Assembly: GCF_015500095.1 (NCBI RefSeq)
Contig: NZ_CP062983.1
Span: 372,001 to 436,000 of the forward strand
Direction: 5' to 3'
DNA length: 64,000 nt
Source: Phototrophicus methaneseepsis
GTDB lineage: Bacteria; Chloroflexota; Anaerolineae; Aggregatilineales; Phototrophicaceae
The position numbers and the translations under genes were made by a program. Shown in pieces: positions 70 to 18,072 of the stretch. The notes beneath the pieces are model-generated. The model was not told where the DNA came from, made no database searches, and saw only the letters and a list, made by a program, of their open reading frames with translations. The number at the start of each line of letters is the position of its first letter. Position 1 is the first letter of the stretch.

Positions 70-642
70 TCAAGGTTCAAGTAAGCGTTCCAAAATACGA
101 TCAAGTTGCCCCGCAGTGATTGGGGCAATAATGGCTTCAACAACATCCCCATTTTGGTCAACAACGAAGGTTTCCGGAACCCCCGTGATACGATACTCTT
201 CTGAGATAATGGTACCGATATCGGGTCCATTGAAATAGGTAATGCCAAATTCTTGAATAAAATCAAGGGAAGCACTTTCCGAATCGAGATAAGTCACACC
301 GACCAGAATGACTCCTCGTTCCCGATAACGCTCCCAGACACTTTGTAAGATGGGAGCCTCATCGCGGCAGGGGACACACCAGCTTGCCCAGAAATTAATT
401 ACCACGACTTTGCCCCGATGATCGGATAGGCGGAAGGACTCGCCATCAAACGTTCTTAAAGTGAAATCCAGTGCAGGTCCAGATGTAGGTTGGGTAGCAC
501 TTCCATCCACATAAGCCCAGCCAATCACAGTCATGAATAGAACAAGACCGATCAACAAAACAATAGACCCCAAACCCAGCTTTTGTTTGGTTGGTGGTGA
601 ATCGCTTAGAAATTTTTCAATACTTTCACCTGTATCTTCCAC
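70..642 (-). CDS. TlpA/ResA-like membrane-anchored thioredoxin
   Basis: 190 residues: a short cytoplasmic N-terminus, one membrane anchor (about residues 24-44), then a TlpA/AhpC-TSA thioredoxin fold facing the outside. The redox-active pair is C89-V-P-C92 inside FWASWCVPC, and the cis-proline loop is in TGVPETF. Family members reduce disulfides of apocytochrome c, Sco proteins or other exported copper proteins, using electrons passed through CcdA. The gene is last in a run with a CcdA, a Rieske protein and a second TlpA, 19 bases behind the Rieske gene. That context fits cytochrome or copper-centre maturation. Family assignment is firm; the exact client is not known. Confidence 0.9.
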   Translation of the reverse strand: MEDTGESIEKFLSDSPPTKQKLGLGSIVLLIGLVLFMTVIGWAYVDGSATQPTSGPALDFTLRTFDGESFRLSDHRGKVVVINFWASWCVPCRDEAPILQSVWERYRERGVILVGVTYLDSESASLDFIQEFGITYFNGPDIGTIISEEYRITGVPETFVVDQNGDVVEAIIAPITAGQLDRILERLLEP

Positions 643-661: not shown

Positions 662-1246
662 CTATATACGCCCGTTACGCAATATGCGCTTGCTCGTATC
701 AATCTGCACTTCGCTGACTTCACGACCTTCTAGGGGAATGGGATCGCCCGCCTCATTGCTACTAAGTGTTGTTCTGTCTGTAAAAACCAGTGTCGTAAAA
801 AAGCGATCCAGACTGCGTGGCGCTGGTCCCTCAATCCACTTGCCATTGAGTTCGTATTTCGAGCCATGACAGGGGCATTCAAAACGCTGGTTGCTGGGCA
901 CCCACTTGGGAATGCAACCCAGATGGGTACAAACCTGATACAACACTACCAACGAATCATCGGCGAGATGGGAGACATGAAAGCGTCCTGTGGGGACTGA
1001 AAAGGGTGCGGCACCCGCGCTTGGGATCTCAGCGGGGTCAAAGCTAAAAGTCCCCCCGAATTCACCGACCCGAAAACGCGGATAGGCAAACCACAGCCCG
1101 ATGCCTACGAACTCCCATAACAACATGAACATCGAGGCACTCCAAATGTAATAGAGAAATTCACGACGGTTGGGTGGGCTGATTGCCACTTCTGTTATTT
1201 CGACGTTTGACGTTACTCTCCTTTGCGATACACTTGCCGTAGCCAT
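662..1246 (-). CDS. Rieske [2Fe-2S] protein
   Basis: 194 residues. A single membrane segment (about 34-54) follows a 30-residue N-terminus, then comes a Rieske domain. The two cluster boxes are C106-T-H108-L-G-C111 and C124-P-C126-H127-G-S. C106, H108, C124 and H127 are the expected iron ligands, and C111/C126 form the family disulfide, so this is a high-potential bc1/b6f-type or QcrA-like domain rather than a dioxygenase ferredoxin. No cytochrome b gene is adjacent, so it may serve an alternative complex or act as a stand-alone electron carrier. It starts 21 bases after the L,D-transpeptidase and belongs to the same operon. Confidence 0.92.
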   Translation of the reverse strand: MATASVSQRRVTSNVEITEVAISPPNRREFLYYIWSASMFMLLWEFVGIGLWFAYPRFRVGEFGGTFSFDPAEIPSAGAAPFSVPTGRFHVSHLADDSLVVLYQVCTHLGCIPKWVPSNQRFECPCHGSKYELNGKWIEGPAPRSLDRFFTTLVFTDRTTLSSNEAGDPIPLEGREVSEVQIDTSKRILRNGRI

Positions 1247-1267: not shown

Positions 1268-2332
1268 CTAGTTGATATAGATGTCACTGCTGTAGACATA
1301 AACATAGGTCACAATGTCTCCGTTTTCGTCAGGGGTTGCTGCCCCGGTCCATTCAAAGAGATAGCGTGCATCACTGATACTCAGGTTGACACAGCCATGA
1401 CTGCGGCGATAGCCAAACAAATCATGCCAATAGGCACCGTGAAAGCTAATATCACCGTCAAAATACATAATCCACGGGACACTCTCCAGAGCATAGCTAT
1501 CGGGTGCGCCTGTGGCTCCTGACTGGTTGCCAACCGCCAACCGCGCCCAGACCGTAAAGATGCCCTCATTGGTGTCCCAACCGGGCAGTCCCGTTGCAAC
1601 TAAAGTCGCAAAAACGGGTGTATCGTCTTCATACGCTACAAGAGTTTGTTCGTAGAGGTCAACAGCGGCCCAACGTCCCTCTACACCCTCTGGTCGCTCA
1701 ACGGGCTTGACGACGGCAACAAAGCGTTGATTCACCCACTGGTTCGGGCCAATCAGATACCAGAGCCAGCCCTCGTTATCAGGCACTTCGGCAAAGATGT
1801 TGACGAGTTCGTAACGATGGGGGATGCGCCCGGTCGCCGCAGAGGACGGCCCGCCCGGATATTCTGAAGTGTAGATTCCCGTTGTATCTACGACCCAAGC
1901 GAAAGGATGCTCAAGGGTATCGGACAAAAGCACCCCCCGGAAGTGCGAGGCTTGTGCCATTTGCGCCTCGCTGCGAAGCAACCATAAACCACTGGCTGCC
2001 TGTATCCAACCCTCTACACTGGTGTCAACCGCTCGGACAAAATTGAAGCCCTCAGCGATTTGCCCCGCACCACTGCCATTGGGCGTATCATACAGATTGA
2101 CCGCTTGTGGACCGACACGCCAGAAATCGTAGGCGTTGAGCGTCACCCTATCGAGGGGGATTTCTTCCAGAAGCGGTGCGGGAAAAGTTGCTATCCACGC
2201 CAGACAGTCCGCATCGGGAATCGGGTTTTCAGTGGTAACTGTTTCACAAGGATTGTTCGCATAAACAATCGAGGTGAAGCCGAAAGTTAGTAAGAAAAGA
2301 GCGAGACTCAACAGGAGCAACCAGTGTTTCAT
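1268..2332 (-). CDS. Secreted L,D-transpeptidase (YkuD domain)
   Basis: 354 residues with an N-terminal signal peptide (about 1-25). The middle region (about 50-215) looks like SH3-type modules. A C-terminal YkuD catalytic domain carries the motif S-H312-G-C314-V-N, preceded by the conserved H298-G. Such enzymes make 3-3 peptide cross-links or attach proteins to peptidoglycan. The start overlaps the stop of the DUF2085 gene by four bases (ATGA), implying coupled translation. A cell-wall enzyme inside a redox operon is odd. It may reflect envelope remodelling under metal stress, but that is inference. Confidence 0.88.
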   Translation of the reverse strand: MKHWLLLLSLALFLLTFGFTSIVYANNPCETVTTENPIPDADCLAWIATFPAPLLEEIPLDRVTLNAYDFWRVGPQAVNLYDTPNGSGAGQIAEGFNFVRAVDTSVEGWIQAASGLWLLRSEAQMAQASHFRGVLLSDTLEHPFAWVVDTTGIYTSEYPGGPSSAATGRIPHRYELVNIFAEVPDNEGWLWYLIGPNQWVNQRFVAVVKPVERPEGVEGRWAAVDLYEQTLVAYEDDTPVFATLVATGLPGWDTNEGIFTVWARLAVGNQSGATGAPDSYALESVPWIMYFDGDISFHGAYWHDLFGYRRSHGCVNLSISDARYLFEWTGAATPDENGDIVTYVYVYSSDIYIN

Positions 2333-3120
2333 GATGTTGAACCCTCATCAAATGTTTGCATAGGTGACCTATTTTGTACTTGAGATGTTTTGCTTGAAAG
2401 CACTGCCAATGTAAGCGAAATGGGGCGATCCAGATAGGGAAATGCAAACCAGACACAAGCAAACCCGAAGCCCAACCCACTGATAAGGCGCATCCAAGAA
2501 TTGAATGAACCCAGCGCATCACCTCGATAAAACCAGGAGGGCAGCGCATGGCCTGTCAAATCCGCTAACCATAGGTTGGAATAGCGAAAGCCTTCTACTA
2601 AACCATAGTTCATATCGCTGAGCATATGGCTTGTGCCGTCAACGACAAGTGGAATCAGTAGCAGAGTAGCAAAGAATAAGCCAAGCGGACGAATCGGGCG
2701 GCGGTGTCTGAGCAAGACATAAGCGATTGATACCAAAAGCACTGCGCCGTACATATACACCATCCGGTCTGACCATGCGACTTTCCAGCCCATGTCAGGA
2801 TTACCGATAAAGGAGCGTAGAGCAACCATATCGCTCACTGTGTTACCTGAAATCGGGACTGGCAATTCAGCGATGTTGTACATAGCTTGCTCACCAAACA
2901 AGAAGAAGGAGCGTTGCGCCATCTGATGACACAGGGGACTGTAGATGATATAAATTACTCTGGCTGGTACTGTCCATCCAAGCTGCATGAATATCGGTGC
3001 CATAAAAGGCAAGAGATTCATAAGTGCAAACAGCAGGCAGAACAATAAAACCCAACGCTCAAGACACCAGCGCAACAGGCGACTTATTCTATTCAGCTTA
3101 GCGTGTCTCTGCTCAAGCAT
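2329..3120 (-). CDS. DUF2085 multi-pass membrane protein
   Basis: 263 residues with several membrane helices. The first third carries the DUF2085 hallmark C-H-Q-M-A-Q-R-S-F after 'YSPLCH'. The family has no established function. The conserved Cys-His pair at the outer face suggests metal or haem interaction, but this is speculation. It starts 9 bases after the CcdA-like gene and overlaps the transpeptidase start by four bases, so all three are cotranscribed. The C-terminal tail (about 235-263) is polar and without motif. Confidence 0.75.
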   Translation of the reverse strand: MLEQRHAKLNRISRLLRWCLERWVLLFCLLFALMNLLPFMAPIFMQLGWTVPARVIYIIYSPLCHQMAQRSFFLFGEQAMYNIAELPVPISGNTVSDMVALRSFIGNPDMGWKVAWSDRMVYMYGAVLLVSIAYVLLRHRRPIRPLGLFFATLLLIPLVVDGTSHMLSDMNYGLVEGFRYSNLWLADLTGHALPSWFYRGDALGSFNSWMRLISGLGFGFACVWFAFPYLDRPISLTLAVLSSKTSQVQNRSPMQTFDEGSTS

Positions 3121-3129
3121 CAGATCACC

Positions 3130-3900
3130 TCATCCATCATTTGCCATGTGTCCGGTGAGATATCCAACATAGGCGGGAACAAGCGGCAAAACGCAGGGGG
3201 AGAGAAAAGAAATGAGACCTGCAAGCACCGCGACAAAATAGGTTGGTGCGCTTGCCCCACCCAATGGCACATCAAGATAGAGACCATTGCGCTGTGCCCA
3301 GATCGCAATGAGGGTCATCTGATTCATCAATAACATCACACCAATGACAATTAGGAACAGACCACTGGCGATTTGCACCTTGCGGACGTGACGGCGGAAG
3401 CGTCGCACAAAATGACTGGCTCGATCAACACCTGCACCGATGATGAGGAATGGAATACCCAGCCCCAGGGCATAACCACTCGATAACAACATGGCTTGAG
3501 CAGAGGATTCCTGGCTAAAACCCATTGTCAGGATCGCACCCAGCGTTGTCCCGATACAGGGTGTCCAACCGGCAGCGAAGAATACGCCCATGAATGCTGA
3601 AGATAGGAGACCACCCTGTCGCTTCACGTTCCATTCAGGGCGGGTATCATATGCCAGCCATGGGATGCGGATTATCCCCAGATTATAGATGCCAAACAGG
3701 ATCACGACGATGCCGCCCAATTGGGCTATCTCACGCTTATAATCCCGGAATATCTGCCCGGCGACAGTCGCAGCACCACCCCACCCGACAATGAATACCA
3801 GTGAGAAGCCCAGAACAAATAGAAGGGCATGTGTAAATGGGGTAGTTCGTTTCAAATGATGTGTAACGACTGGTTTGGCTGTGCCATGATCAAAGTCCAT
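3130..3900 (-). CDS. ccdA: CcdA-like thiol-disulfide transporter with circularly permuted helix order
   Basis: 256 residues from the ATG at 3900, which has a GGAG ribosome site 7 bases upstream (the longer frame would start at TTG). Six membrane helices. The protein opens with the helix that is normally CcdA helix 2 (FTHALLFVLGFSLVF, about 23-37). The helix-4 cysteine motif G-W-T-P-C115 follows mid-protein. The protein ends with the helix that is normally the N-terminal one, including S-P-C236-V-L-P-L-V-P-A-Y and Y-L-T-G. Both redox cysteines are present, but helix 1 has moved to the C-terminus. With an even helix number the topology can be preserved, and the N-terminal K/R cluster fits a cytoplasmic start. 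It would pass electrons to the two TlpA proteins of this operon. Confidence 0.85.
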   Translation of the reverse strand: MDFDHGTAKPVVTHHLKRTTPFTHALLFVLGFSLVFIVGWGGAATVAGQIFRDYKREIAQLGGIVVILFGIYNLGIIRIPWLAYDTRPEWNVKRQGGLLSSAFMGVFFAAGWTPCIGTTLGAILTMGFSQESSAQAMLLSSGYALGLGIPFLIIGAGVDRASHFVRRFRRHVRKVQIASGLFLIVIGVMLLMNQMTLIAIWAQRNGLYLDVPLGGASAPTYFVAVLAGLISFLSPCVLPLVPAYVGYLTGHMANDG

Positions 3901-3947: not shown

Positions 3948-4640
3948 TTAGCTGTGCTGATGTCCCTCTCCCCCGCAGCCATCGGTCAACGTCCAGAGAT
4001 CAGCCAATTCTTGGGCATCCCAATTCTGTTCAGTGATGAGATACTTCCCCATGCCTTCAAAGGCATACCAGCGCCAGCAACGGCAGCAGCAAGAACCACC
4101 TTCGTCCGAGAGACTCATGGCTTCATCATATATAAGCTGCTGTTCGGCGGTTAATTGAATGTCAGTCTGATAAGCGAGTAGTTCCTGGACGAGTGGGACT
4201 GGCATATCGTAGGGGTCTACGGGTATCTGGCGGATGTCTGCATATTGCCGGAGTCCTTCAACCTGCTCTTGATAGCGATGCAAATCCATCGGTGAACAGC
4301 AAGACCCTTGCAGACGCATCTCATCTGCGTAGACCAAAACAGCTTCAGGTTGCAATCCACAGATATTGCTCCGCTGATTGGATAGATGGTTGAATGCCAC
4401 TTCCGAACCAGGTGGCAAGCCAGACATCAGTTGCTCAGAACTGCCGAAATCCAATGATTGAGAAGCGTCGGATGAATGTCCATAAATTGCTGTAAAGGCA
4501 AAGATCATACCTAATATCAGTACAGTCAGTGCGACAAGCATTCTAAACGCGGTTTGCGAGACAAAACTTTTAAACGCAGTTCGCATGGATGGCTGATCGA
4601 CATTGTGACCTGTGCCCGATTTTTCGTTTGGGTTCGCCAT
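3948..4640 (-). CDS. Cys-rich single-pass membrane protein, unknown function
   Basis: 230 residues with one membrane segment (about 34-52) and an exported C-terminal domain. Cysteines are clustered: C94; C114-C115; C184-C185-C186-x-C188; C222. The tail G-C-G-G-E-G-H-Q-H-S also looks metal-binding. I do not recognise a named family. The pairs of cysteines and the His tail suggest a copper or other soft-metal binding protein, or a substrate of the TlpA/CcdA thiol relay whose genes flank it. It sits between the CcdA-like gene (47 bases) and a small two-helix membrane protein (56 bases) in one operon. Confidence 0.75.
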   Translation of the reverse strand: MANPNEKSGTGHNVDQPSMRTAFKSFVSQTAFRMLVALTVLILGMIFAFTAIYGHSSDASQSLDFGSSEQLMSGLPPGSEVAFNHLSNQRSNICGLQPEAVLVYADEMRLQGSCCSPMDLHRYQEQVEGLRQYADIRQIPVDPYDMPVPLVQELLAYQTDIQLTAEQQLIYDEAMSLSDEGGSCCCRCWRWYAFEGMGKYLITEQNWDAQELADLWTLTDGCGGEGHQHS

Positions 4641-4696: not shown

Positions 4697-5047
4697 CTAT
4701 ACTTCCAGTTCTGTGATTTCGTCATCTAGTAACTGTCGTTGCAGGCGTAACTGCATCAGGTAATCCTCTAAATCGGATGGCAACTCCTTGTTTTTCCGCA
4801 GATTATCTGTGCTTTGGTTCATGTTCTTATTCATCATCCACATCATCAGTCCCATGCCAACAGGACACGCTAAACCGACCAGTAGTAAAAAGAGGGTGTT
4901 TAAATCCATAATGGGTCTCCTTAACAAAGCTATACTCATTATTCCGATGCCGACGGCAATTAGTCCGGGCGTACAACACAGGGCGATTGGTAGCCAGTGA
5001 GTCTTAGTACCCGGTTTGTTATGTGAACAACAGTTTTGTCTCATCAT
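4697..5047 (-). CDS. Small two-helix membrane protein with N-terminal Cys/His cluster
   Basis: 116 residues: N-terminal M-M-R-Q-N-C-C-S-H, two hydrophobic segments (about 18-41 and 50-72), and a charged, probably coiled C-terminal tail (about 75-116). The ATG overlaps the stop of the upstream TlpA gene (ATGA, 5044-5047), so the two are translationally coupled. The 'GLACPVGMGLMMWMM' helix is Cys/Met-rich and resembles the small DUF2933-type proteins common in metal-resistance islands, but I cannot place it firmly. Function unknown. Confidence 0.65.
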   Translation of the reverse strand: MMRQNCCSHNKPGTKTHWLPIALCCTPGLIAVGIGIMSIALLRRPIMDLNTLFLLLVGLACPVGMGLMMWMMNKNMNQSTDNLRKNKELPSDLEDYLMQLRLQRQLLDDEITELEV

Positions 5048-5727
5048 GACTCCATAAGCTCATTCACAAATTCGTCAACCTGTCCGGCAGTCATAATGCC
5101 AATGTGGATGCGTGTAATAATGCCCTCGCGGTTAACAAAGACACTCATCGGTAGCCCGAACAAGTGATATAGCTCATCTGAGGCTGTGCCTGTTTCATCC
5201 AGAAGGACCGGAAAATTCATCTCAAATTCTTCAACGAATGCCTCGACATCCTCAATCGAATCCTGATGAGTTAAATCCACTGCCAGAATGACGAAACCCT
5301 CGCCTCTACGTGCATTGTAGATACGCACCAACTCCGGCATTTCGATACGACAGGGACCACACCACGTTGTCCAGAAGTTAATCAAGACAGGCTGACCAGA
5401 AAAATCGCTTAATGAAACGGCATCTCCTGCGAGCGTTCTGATGGTAAAGTCGGGAGCGGGTTGTCCAACCAGTACATCGCCTACAAATTGTTGCGAACCC
5501 AATACTGAATTCGTGGTATCTGCACCATAAACGGTGACAGGTGTGATGTCCGATGGGAACGGGATTAAGCCTCTCGTCGACTCCCGACTCGATTGTTCCC
5601 CCCGTAAGGCAATCCCTGCAAAAACGAGTATCAACCCTATTCCGTTGAGAGCCATCAATAGCACAAACCAATTCACCCTTCTGCCATGATTTGGTCGCTC
5701 CTCAAGCGATTGTGTTTCCGATTCCAT
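5044..5727 (-). CDS. TlpA-like membrane-anchored thioredoxin, second copy
   Basis: 227 residues. One membrane anchor (about 20-41), a 45-residue linker, then an AhpC/TSA-thioredoxin domain with active site W-C123-G-P-C126 in FWTTWCGPC and the cis-Pro loop in FGLPMSVFV. It is longer than the first TlpA because of the linker and has the canonical CGPC rather than CVPC, so the two may have different clients. It is the first gene after a 95-base gap from the propeller gene, and the small membrane gene overlaps its stop. Confidence 0.9.
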   Translation of the reverse strand: MESETQSLEERPNHGRRVNWFVLLMALNGIGLILVFAGIALRGEQSSRESTRGLIPFPSDITPVTVYGADTTNSVLGSQQFVGDVLVGQPAPDFTIRTLAGDAVSLSDFSGQPVLINFWTTWCGPCRIEMPELVRIYNARRGEGFVILAVDLTHQDSIEDVEAFVEEFEMNFPVLLDETGTASDELYHLFGLPMSVFVNREGIITRIHIGIMTAGQVDEFVNELMES

Positions 5728-5822: not shown

Positions 5823-6761
5823 TCAGTTTTTACCAATCCCGCCCTCAGCAATGGTTTCCCAGGATTGACCGCTATCTGACGAGAGATAAATGTCCTTATT
5901 GAAGGTTGCAATGGCAATTTGCTCGGACACAGGATTAATAGCAATGTATCCCAGTGCATCTTGATTGCTGATTGTGGGTGTCTCTGATGGTGATATCTGA
6001 GCATCCGCGAGGGTATAAGAAAAGAGACTCTGATAGCCGAAGAGCAGACGCTCGCCGTTCGGGTCAAAGCTGACGGCACTAACAGGGACAAGGTTGCCAA
6101 TCTGTACAAAGCTGTCTCCGTAATCATTTGAGAGGAATAAGCCGCCTTCCGTTGCAAGGGCTACGGTGTTCGCTTCAGTCGGGTGAACGGCTAATTGTAG
6201 GGGGTTGCCACTGACACCACGTCCCGCACTTTGCGTCCAGGTTTGACCCTCATCCAGCGTGTAGTGCAAGCCCGGACTTAATTGAGAATTCTGTCTTGGG
6301 TTGAGAACATACACTGCATGACTCTCATAACTGGCGCTCATGAGATGGAAGTCTGTCTCCCCGGCAAACGCCAGCGTTTGGATACTCTCACCTCCATCGC
6401 CACTCCGAACCAGACCCAGAGGATTGATTAGGTTTGAGCCGGGACCGGGATGACCACTGCTATAAAATCCCGCATCCGTTCCCGAATAACCCATGTAATC
6501 ATGCACAGGCACATCTGGTACGTGCCACTGACCATTTTCGTAGGTTCGCAATCCATCATGCGCCGGGACGATAAGTTGGTTTCCATCCGCAGAGAAACTC
6601 AGTCCATGAATGTCTCTAAATGCCACCGCATTACCGGCTAATTGACGTGTCAGATACAGTAGCCCGAAAATTACGATACTGACCACGGCAATGATGATTA
6701 TTTGTTTGGGACCAAACGTTGATTTCGATTGTTTTTTGCGACCAGCGCGAGATTTTGCCAT
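5823..6761 (-). CDS. F510_1955-type exported beta-propeller protein, copy 1
   Basis: 312 residues: a basic N-terminus, one membrane anchor (about 22-40), then a repeat-rich beta-propeller with BNR/sialidase-like blades (repeated 'S-x-D-x-G-x-x-W' type motifs, e.g. DEGQTW and DSGQSW). The segments D-I-H-G-L-S-F and G-Y-S-G-T-D-A-G-F-Y-S-S-G-H-P match the family NCBI calls F510_1955 glycosylhydrolase. The glycosidase role is not proven; members often sit in metal and redox loci. It is 28 bases behind the Sco gene, in the same operon. A second full copy lies at 17079-18029 and a relic at 44257-44339. Confidence 0.8.
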   Translation of the reverse strand: MAKSRAGRKKQSKSTFGPKQIIIIAVVSIVIFGLLYLTRQLAGNAVAFRDIHGLSFSADGNQLIVPAHDGLRTYENGQWHVPDVPVHDYMGYSGTDAGFYSSGHPGPGSNLINPLGLVRSGDGGESIQTLAFAGETDFHLMSASYESHAVYVLNPRQNSQLSPGLHYTLDEGQTWTQSAGRGVSGNPLQLAVHPTEANTVALATEGGLFLSNDYGDSFVQIGNLVPVSAVSFDPNGERLLFGYQSLFSYTLADAQISPSETPTISNQDALGYIAINPVSEQIAIATFNKDIYLSSDSGQSWETIAEGGIGKN

Positions 6762-6789: not shown

Positions 6790-7419
6790 TCAGTTATTCA
6801 ATATTTGCTCAATCCGAAGCAGCAACAATTCATGTAAGGGGCGCGAGGGTGCAGGGGTACCAGGTGTCACAAAAGGGGTTGAAATATACCAGCGTAGTTG
6901 TCCCTGTGGATCAATCATATATACGCCGGGTGTATGAGTAATATCCTCTTCTGATGGAACAACGTCAATGTGGTACGCCGCCCAAACAGGCTCAAGTTTT
7001 TCTGCTTGCCCTGTTAAGAAGTGCCAATTAGGGATTTCATCTAAGCTCCAATGCTGGCTTGCAGCACTGAGATCTTCGAGCGTGTTGGCCTCGAGGTTGA
7101 CATTGATAGCCATTAACACAACCGAGTCTGTATAATCTCCAAGTGCTTGATATGTCTGCACAAATTGATAACCGGTGAGCGGGCAAACATCTTCACAGCG
7201 GCTGTCGAAGAAAGTCAGGACGACAACCTTACCCTGATATTCTGATAGGTGTATGACCTGCCCCGACTGGTCACTCAGTTCGAAATCGGGGGCGACTTCA
7301 TCCAGGGCTGTACCGCCATAACCTTCTATAACATCATTTGTTTCGGACGTATTAGAACAGGCGGTAATGGTGAAGACTATAAAGATTAAGATTGTGCCTC
7401 GAATAAGTGATGAAAGCAT
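6790..7419 (-). CDS. Sco1/SenC/PrrC-family lipoprotein
   Basis: 209 residues with a lipoprotein signal (T-I-T-A-C21). The thioredoxin-like Sco domain carries the copper ligands C75-E-D-V-C79 and H162 in 'THTPGVYMIDP'. Sco proteins deliver copper to the CuA site of cytochrome oxidase or reduce its cysteines. The gene heads the long redox operon. A perfect BlaI/CopY-like operator lies 23 bases upstream of the ATG, so expression is probably repressed by the BlaI-family protein encoded just upstream. Confidence 0.93.
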   Translation of the reverse strand: MLSSLIRGTILIFIVFTITACSNTSETNDVIEGYGGTALDEVAPDFELSDQSGQVIHLSEYQGKVVVLTFFDSRCEDVCPLTGYQFVQTYQALGDYTDSVVLMAINVNLEANTLEDLSAASQHWSLDEIPNWHFLTGQAEKLEPVWAAYHIDVVPSEEDITHTPGVYMIDPQGQLRWYISTPFVTPGTPAPSRPLHELLLLRIEQILNN

Positions 7420-17078: not shown

Positions 17079-18029
17079 CTAATTACTCATTCCATCCGTA
17101 GCAATTTGCTCCCATGACTGTCCCTCATCCGGGGAATAAAATATATCGCGGTCAGAGGTCGCAAACGCCAATGCGTCATCCAGGGGATTAAGGGCTATGT
17201 AAAGAATCGCCTGATCTGCATCTATATCAGGGCTTACAGCTAGCGATGTGATCTGTCCATCGCTGAGCGCATAGGAAAAAAGGCTGTCAAATCCGAACAA
17301 CAAACGTTCTCCGTCAGGATCAAATGCTACTGATGTGACAATGTTCGCGTCGCTAATTCGTGTGAATGTCGCACCAAAATCATTCGACAAAAATACACCA
17401 CCGCGTGTCGCTAATGCAAGCACACTCGCCTCACTTGGATGTACGGCAATCTGCATAGGAGGCTCTATCAAACCCTCCGCTGCGCTCTGTTCCCATGTTT
17501 GACCGCTATCAAGGCTGTAGTGTAATCCAGCAGATAGCAGAGAGTTGGGGGCCGGATTTAGCACATAAATCGTTTCACCGTAATAAGCTGCACCCATAAC
17601 ATGAAAGTCGGTTTCGCCGGAGAAGTTAATCGTGGTGATATTTGCACCGTGATCCCGACTTTCCACCAATCCGATGGGATTCACAAGCCGCGACCCGGCT
17701 CCGGGATGTCCACTACTGAAAAAACCGTTTTCAGTGCCGGAATAACCCATATAATCGTTAACCGGCAAATCAGGCTTAGACCAATTCCCATTCTGGTAAC
17801 CCACAATACCTGTATGAGTAGCCACCCGTAATTGTCCCCCATCACCCGTAAAGCTCATGCCATGAATATCGGGGAAAGCTACTGCTACACTACTAGTCCT
17901 ATTGATAAGGAATACAAGACCTATCACCAGTGTAATTGCGACTATGCCTACCCCAATCCACATCATCTGTTGCTGTCGTTTTTGCTGTGCTTTCACCTCG
18001 CGGCGATTGCGTGTGTTCTTTTTTGCCAT
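17079..18029 (-). CDS. F510_1955-type exported beta-propeller protein, copy 2
   Basis: 316 residues from the ATG at 18029 (a TTG further upstream gives the longer frame). Basic N-terminus, membrane anchor (about 22-42), then a propeller with BNR-type turns (D-S-G-Q-T-W, D-E-G-Q-S-W). It is closely similar along its whole length to the protein at 5823-6761, including D-I-H-G-M-S-F and G-Y-S-G-T-E-N-G-F-F-S-S-G-H-P. It stands next to the multicopper oxidase but has its own upstream box, now separated from the gene by a small MITE-like insertion. Function unproven. Confidence 0.82.
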   Translation of the reverse strand: MAKKNTRNRREVKAQQKRQQQMMWIGVGIVAITLVIGLVFLINRTSSVAVAFPDIHGMSFTGDGGQLRVATHTGIVGYQNGNWSKPDLPVNDYMGYSGTENGFFSSGHPGAGSRLVNPIGLVESRDHGANITTINFSGETDFHVMGAAYYGETIYVLNPAPNSLLSAGLHYSLDSGQTWEQSAAEGLIEPPMQIAVHPSEASVLALATRGGVFLSNDFGATFTRISDANIVTSVAFDPDGERLLFGFDSLFSYALSDGQITSLAVSPDIDADQAILYIALNPLDDALAFATSDRDIFYSPDEGQSWEQIATDGMSN

Positions 18030-18072
18030 CGTGTTCTGCCTCAATTGATTGTGAATACAAACGAATTAAATT

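Follow-up and report, generated by a model that had tools for sequence, protein, structure and literature searches.

A natural circular permutant of CcdA in Chloroflexota, with a helix order that appears to have changed more than once

In ordinary CcdA both termini lie outside the cell membrane, and DsbD possesses periplasmic alpha and gamma domains. Natural circular permutation is very rare in print for helical membrane proteins. In some organisms CcdA supplies a cytochrome c maturation pathway with reductant from across the membrane (PMC3601427), and an elevator movement has been proposed for TM1 and TM4, the two CcdA helices with the active-site cysteines (PMC7329351). Another pair of thiol-redox helical membrane proteins, DsbB and VKOR, is likewise related by circular permutation, with four helices in the order ABCD versus CDAB and a helix pair moved between very distant families; that paper calls the case a first report and its direction untellable (PMC4555120). 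A 2020 paper on helical membrane folds states that circular permutations in membrane proteins were unobserved to its authors' knowledge (PMC7162841). In the open-licence PMC literature, judged largely by title, we found no treatment of a permuted CcdA, nor a precedent for natural circular permutation recurring within one family of helical membrane proteins.

The protein described here is encoded in a 64-kb stretch of DNA from Phototrophicus methaneseepsis, the whole of which we call the window (Table 1). Its likeness to CcdA (PF02683; Thermus thermophilus CcdA, 5VKV) comprises homologous helices, six in number, and the cysteines of the SPCxxP and WTPC motifs, and it differs from 5VKV in that TM1 comes last, the termini are predicted to be cytoplasmic and a new linker joins TM6 to TM1. 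In contrast to DsbB/VKOR, a single helix has changed place, inside one family whose members of different order share up to 64% identity in the core; the termini are predicted to switch side, and more than one order change appears to have occurred. We consider it probable (about 0.87) that the window protein is a working thiol electron transporter of CcdA type and a natural circular permutant, in a family whose helix order would have changed at least twice within Chloroflexota; function and topology are deduced here from sequence comparison.

In the mechanism that we propose, the chain would have been cut between TM1 and TM2, and a new linker of about 28 residues, lying outside, would now connect TM6 to the old TM1. 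The termini would pass from the outside, where they lie in ordinary CcdA, to the cytoplasm, and each helix would keep its orientation. This is what moving one helix of a six-helix protein entails, since the orientations are kept and both termini switch side. TM1 would then be tethered outside instead of inside, in a protein that may do the same job as ordinary CcdA.

Table 1. Permuted ccdA, its parts and neighbouring genes, in window positions
Feature	Position	Strand	Remarks
Second TlpA/ResA-like thioredoxin-fold protein (WCVPC)	70..642	-	PF00578 E 5.5e-22; ResA model E 5.4e-31, below its cut-off
Rieske [2Fe-2S] protein	662..1246	-	PF00355 E 3.4e-10
DUF2085 membrane protein	2329..3120	-	PF09858; follows ccdA on its 3' side after 9 bases
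Permuted ccdA	3130..3900	-	256 aa, order TM2-TM3-TM4-TM5-TM6-TM1-stop; PF02683 match
TM1 with C236, C-terminal here	3160..3240	-	residues 221-247, YFVAVLAGLISFLSPCVLPLVPAYVGY; matches ordinary N-terminal helix and 5VKV 7-34
New linker from TM6 to TM1, predicted outside	3241..3324	-	residues 193-220, NQMTLIAIWAQRNGLYLDVPLGGASAPT
TM4 with C115 in GWTPCIG	3523..3609	-	residues 98-126
Cysteine-rich protein 5' of ccdA	3948..4640	-	without a match in Pfam or NCBIfam
TlpA/ResA-like thioredoxin-fold protein (WCGPC), likely electron acceptor	5044..5727	-	PF00578 E 1.8e-24; PRK03147 (ResA) E 8.4e-34, below its cut-off
SCO1/SenC-like thioredoxin-fold protein	6790..7419	-	PF02630 E 7.6e-18

The open frame starts with an ATG at 3900-3898, seven bases behind a GGAG, and ends with a TGA at 3132-3130; the mechanical ORF call begins at a TTG one codon earlier, and the numbers of C115 and C236 follow the ATG and the Pfam residues 15-192 given below the TTG. 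As the initial annotation had claimed, the frame reads from the second helix, with the N-terminus HALLFVLGFSLVF (TM2), to the SPCVLP helix, with SPCVLPLVPAYVGYL (TM1) and a short tail at the C-terminus. Its further claims, that the cysteines C115 and C236 are both present and that no other SPCVLP copy lies nearby, held up as well: the two positions are as given, and a search of all six frames of the 64-kb window for [SAT]PC[VILF][LF]P and for W[TSIG]PC[VIL]G gives a single hit each, both in the permuted ccdA frame; this absence of a second TM1 or TM4 motif goes against an ordinary CcdA being read in another frame. That a rearranged contig or a sequencing error had cut and rejoined an ordinary ccdA, a danger which the initial annotation had raised and to which the prevalence of metagenome assemblies among the relatives in the contig scan might lend something, is next to inconceivable, for the window genome (G000) is a single contig of 5.63 Mb, the same order occurs in the single-contig genomes G163, G179, G355, G369 and G476 and in the complete genome of Leptolinea sp. 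HRD-7 (L075), and the TM4 and TM1 motifs are spaced by 124 residues at 65 and by 123 at 10 of the 75 strict-motif loci.

Several comparisons bear on the helix order itself. Pfam DsbD_TM (PF02683) scores the window protein at 47.7 bits, over a curated cut-off of 27.1, and lays residues 15-192 on profile positions 37-215, with the start of the profile (TM1) absent from the front. The ordinary CcdA of genome G055 matches in two pieces: residues 6-197 are 43% identical to it (E 9e-46), and residues 217-255, which are 72% identical (E 6e-12), correspond to a segment that lies upstream in the G055 gene. When TM1 is put in front, the alignment score against the protein L010 rises from 406 to 535, where the top of 30 shuffles is 59, and a rotation scan, the kind of permutation-aware alignment that the initial annotation had suggested, was run on 13 pairs that involve 10 permuted proteins, some from distant groups; in all 13 the best cut falls between TM6 and TM1. 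Given the swapped two-piece matches and the rotation score against shuffles, the order is real, far beyond chance, and the claim of a circular permutation is borne out. A profile built from nine permuted proteins is swapped in the same way against the solved CcdA, with profile 230-257 (TM1) on chain residues 7-34 of 5VKV and profile 27-205 (the remaining helices) on 38-206. PF02683 was also surveyed in eight genomes, a few further weak matches being left unclassed, and the match begins at profile position 4 or 5 in three ordinary genes and at 37-45 in nine permuted ones; in the permuted gene of G355 the profile matches at 42-210 and then, downstream in the same gene, at 6-50, and in that of G476 at 44-217 and then at 7-52.

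Is the C-terminal helix indeed TM1? It might instead be a copy of TM4, its counterpart in the inverted repeat, or an unrelated helix that has converged on the SPC motif. CcdA is made of two inverted three-helix repeats (PMC7329351), so TM1 and TM4 are alike, but the C-terminal helix has 72-75% identity over 39-45 residues to the ordinary TM1 of G055, G037 and G044, and it is on this helix that residues 7-34 of 5VKV and the profile stretches 6-50 (G355) and 7-52 (G476) fall. In these searches the helix thus scores as TM1 rather than as TM4, and we regard either other origin as extremely improbable. Single contigs, swapped matches and single motif copies rule out a copied TM4 together with an assembly artefact and a split gene.

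A canonical CcdA runs collinear with PF02683 from TM1 to TM6, and in the window protein the start of the profile is found behind the rest, so we file it as a permuted variant and not as canonical CcdA. By homology it belongs with CcdA and probably works like CcdA, with a helix order that departs from the collinear one. The DsbD model NF001419 gives 20.8 bits against a cut-off of 330, and the 256-aa protein is without an extra domain. An ordinary-order CcdA is present in the same genome, in a 652-aa frame (match at C1:3005262-3006191; 42% over query residues 85-197 and 59% over TM1) with a long TM3-TM4 insert and a C-terminal TlpA-like part with a WCGPC of thioredoxin type. Two more weak PF02683 matches in G000 (C1:303458-304003 and 916269-916820) seem to be other DsbD_TM relatives.

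Residue conservation was assessed in an alignment of 53 rows, for which 52 of 78 proteins were kept after thinning above 88% identity, and L114, which a stop interrupts after TM6, and L121, at the edge of a contig, were left out. C115 and C236 are invariant in 53 of 53 relatives, as are the prolines beside both cysteines, G111, W112, P114, C115 and G117 of TM4, and Y244 and Y247 of TM1. The linker from TM6 to TM1 has a mean length of 27.8 aa with 1.28 K/R; within it P219 is invariant, and I198, I200, W201, A202 and G206 are at least 90% conserved.

The initial annotation had further held that all six helices are present and that each keeps its orientation. Six helices are found both in the structure model and as six hydrophobic segments nearly without charge, and the distribution of positive charge fits the second claim. 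Over the 53 rows the mean K+R count in the supposedly inside segments is 2.62 (N-tail), 3.26 (TM3-TM4), 5.75 (TM5-TM6) and 1.32 (C-tail), and in the supposedly outside segments 1.94 (TM2-TM3 loop), then 0.02, and 1.28 (linker). This pattern suggests that each helix keeps its orientation, with both termini predicted to be cytoplasmic. In four ordinary proteins the corresponding means are 0 for the N-tail and 1.75 for the C-tail, 1.00, 3.75 and 4.50 for the TM1-TM2, TM3-TM4 and TM5-TM6 loops, and 2.75 and 1.00 for the TM2-TM3 and TM4-TM5 loops, charges that point to the same orientation with a weaker contrast. The TM2-TM3 loop, supposed to lie outside, speaks against the predicted topology with its 1.94 K/R in the permuted and 2.75 in the four ordinary proteins. 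C-terminal extensions of at least 100 aa occur in none of 127 permuted ORFs and in 19 of 70 ordinary ones (the rows being related), and 17 of these 19 carry W[CS]xxC. Their confinement to ordinary ORFs agrees with a cytoplasmic C-terminus in the permuted form, as the C-terminal TlpA fusions of ordinary CcdA are in keeping with outside termini.

The AlphaFold model of the permuted protein has a pLDDT of 78.2 and a pTM of 0.75. Foldseek returned no match to it in the PDB at E<=0.001. By VIA, over 551 Foldseek chains, the best match is 5VKV with Z 6.7 and 4.3 A over 182 residues, in the range that VIA calls middling for helical bundles, and the next has Z 4.2. Model residues 17-215 lie on residues 35-224 of the 5VKV chain, as the permutation predicts, in a sequential alignment that is blind to the slot of TM1.

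What task might the permuted protein perform? We propose that electrons would pass from cytoplasmic thioredoxin through C115 and C236 to outside thioredoxin-fold proteins (TlpA/ResA, DsbA-like, CcmG/CcmH), a route that may serve the assembly of cytochrome c and perhaps of copper proteins. We infer electron transfer from the family to which the protein belongs, and its TlpA, DsbA-like and Ccm neighbours supply the context. Neighbourhoods were compared at 65 main-group loci, namely those of the 80 kept in the contig scan that were classed permuted and whose ORF was not identical to that of an earlier locus. At 35 of them a gene for a TlpA- or DsbA-like protein stands no farther than 5.5 kb away; the other 30, which tell against the proposed route, show no member of a TlpA- or DsbA-like cluster in that range. 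Clusters labelled from one tested representative each include DUF2085 (27 loci), rhodanese (21), DUF3105 (19) and multicopper oxidase (13); a cluster found at 45 of the 65 loci has an HMA-type P-type ATPase as its representative, and its sequences mix in sensor-kinase-like proteins. The ordinary plasmid-borne ccdA genes that were examined have thioredoxin-fold neighbours too, as the permuted gene does. On the same strand of the window, 10 kb apart, 5823-6761 and 17079-18044 encode exported-looking proteins of 312 and 321 aa that begin alike (VAFRDIHGLSF, VAFPDIHGMSF) and seem to be paralogues.

In G163, a genome in one contig and 98% complete, DsbD_TM matches the permuted gene alone, and an ordinary-CcdA profile finds nothing else either, matching this gene as two swapped pieces. 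Upstream of it on one strand lie genes for CcmF, CcmH, a TlpA-like protein, a cytochrome c protein in which CXXCH occurs twice, a fused CcmAB and CcmC, and directly downstream on the same strand lies a second TlpA-like gene; Pfam confirmed the latter and the cytochrome c protein. The NCBIfam scores of CcmC and CcmF are below their curated cut-offs, and those of Pfam PF01578, CcmH, CcmB and AhpC-TSA are above theirs. A CcmC-like gene also adjoins the permuted ccdA in G249 and G360. Neither PF02683 nor the ordinary-CcdA profile finds a second CcdA in G163, G249 or G360, and G369 has one additional weak PF02683 match.

An alternative is a permuted protein that is folded and retains both cysteines yet has another task, such as transport of metals or thiol metabolites, in place of the reduction of thioredoxin-fold proteins. 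The P-type ATPase, multicopper oxidase and rhodanese among the main-group neighbour representatives would suit such a role, as would a weak match to the ArsG permease model NF040495 (32.6 bits against an equivalog cut-off of 200). The TlpA- or DsbA-like neighbours at 35 of 65 loci count against it, as do the genomes that have System I genes and in which no CcdA but the permuted one was found, in G163 inside the Ccm cluster itself, and we think a different task improbable.

The permuted form is widespread in Chloroflexota beside ordinary relatives with TM1 first, which the initial annotation had not foreseen. A contig scan with one protein as query returned no relatives. With patterns fitted to the main permuted group, the scan kept 80 relatives of 181, and TM4 precedes TM1 in all 80 (75 by strict motif, four with a variant motif by reading, and L114 with its stop), the comparison with relatives that the initial annotation had suggested; for 77 of them a Chloroflexota or Anaerolineae-type group is named. 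L067 and L073 (JAPUDW010000327.1), labelled Bacteroidetes, and L072 (LAKY01000076.1), labelled Clostridiales, have Chloroflexota-type permuted ccdA genes and are perhaps misbinned; the L072 protein is near-identical to the Leptolinea protein L075. By hand count, an order-level sample holds 15 full-length permuted genes in 12 of 154 genomes, and a class-wide sample has a full-length match (query from <=30 to >=250) in at least 57 of 396 genomes, or at least 68 with 11 further genomes that by translation have inserts or a diverged TM2-TM3. Outside the class and inside the phylum, the permuted gene was verified in four genomes (G791, G848, G704 and G693).

Profile-based classing of 200 CcdA-like ORFs gave 127 permuted, 70 ordinary and 3 unclear (L114; L260, its TM1 unrecognised; L023, at a contig edge), numbers that are not frequencies because the loci were picked by similarity to permuted proteins. 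Tandem duplication followed by trimming is a plausible candidate route to the permuted order; an ORF with TM1 at both ends, the duplication intermediate, was found in 0 of the 200. A tblastn search for permuted forms outside Chloroflexota, which hit 367 plasmid records, gave no match past query residue 221, into the C-terminal TM1, among the matches listed (the 40 best and 60 evenly spread, in overlapping lists with one place per record).

How often, and in which direction, has the order changed? The tree of TM2-TM6 (63 rows, those more than 66% identical to a kept row thinned) needs five order changes, with permuted groups adjoining ordinary ones, and so does the tree of all six helices in a common order (52 rows, thinned above 62% identity to a kept row, with 3 of 197 classed ORFs omitted for a short core). 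These gene trees, on which the count leans, have many weak branches, and the well-supported ones alone force one change in the 63-row tree and two in the 52-row tree; with the same 52 rows reduced to the core, the number is again two. The AU test rejects a single permuted clade both with all helices (log-likelihood down by 75.0, p-AU 5.5e-5) and with the core alone (down by 67.8, p 2.6e-5). It does not reject the main group and the f11 group as one clade (p 0.26) or the three other permuted groups together (p 0.22), and it rejects the main group with two of those three (p 0.001). With one clade rejected and two clades compatible with the test, at least two order changes appear to be needed in Chloroflexota; five is the point estimate, and the direction is not fixed by these trees.

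Pairwise core comparisons agree with repeated change for one permuted group, that of L183, and decide nothing for the others. The permuted L183 core scores 561 (60%) with the ordinary L237, whereas its best score with another permuted group is 427 (46%); its top identity to a permuted protein, 53%, comes from an alignment that scores lower. L197 and L227, of the same group, likewise score best against ordinary proteins. In the other permuted groups the best matches are near-equal between ordinary and permuted proteins. The closest relation across orders is that of ordinary G178 to permuted L183, with 64% identity in the core and 71% in TM1.

A single old permutation, reverted to the ordinary order in part of the lineages later on, is a history that we hold to be unlikely, if still worth weighing. 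Parsimony counts changes without direction, and the two clades that the test does not reject each leave room for it, but all six rows from outside Chloroflexota in the 52-row tree, which are six only, have the ordinary order. A return would itself be a second permutation, so even then there would be at least two order changes. Repeated permutation can be put more specifically, and to this stronger form we give about even odds: several Chloroflexota lineages (five permuted groups in the best trees) would each have transferred TM1 to the end of the protein on their own, always by a cut between TM1 and TM2, with the termini going from the outside to the cytoplasm, the electron route kept and the ordinary form replaced for cytochrome c maturation in some species.

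With a close pair that differs in order, the route, the direction and the cost of moving a helix become directly testable, and with them a rare kind of event in the evolution of membrane proteins. The permuted CcdA bears on membrane insertion, since the moved helix would enter last and be tethered outside instead of inside, and also on the elevator model, in which TM1 and TM4 would move. For annotation, collinear profiles cover only part of a permuted CcdA and give low scores.

Some permuted loci show variations of their own. In L114, from about 7956 (+), a stop codon stands between TM6 and TM1 and TM1 follows in-frame, which may be a broken gene or an assembly error. The frame of L260 (G286:C1:722028-722591), in the f11 group, seems shifted before TM1, and its relatives have intact copies. 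L198, L199 and L224, of a permuted group, carry a TM3-TM4 insert of roughly 80-130 residues by eye, with hydrophobic stretches. Finally, six genomes (G364, G009, G024, G179, G093 and G289) have two or three permuted ccdA copies each.
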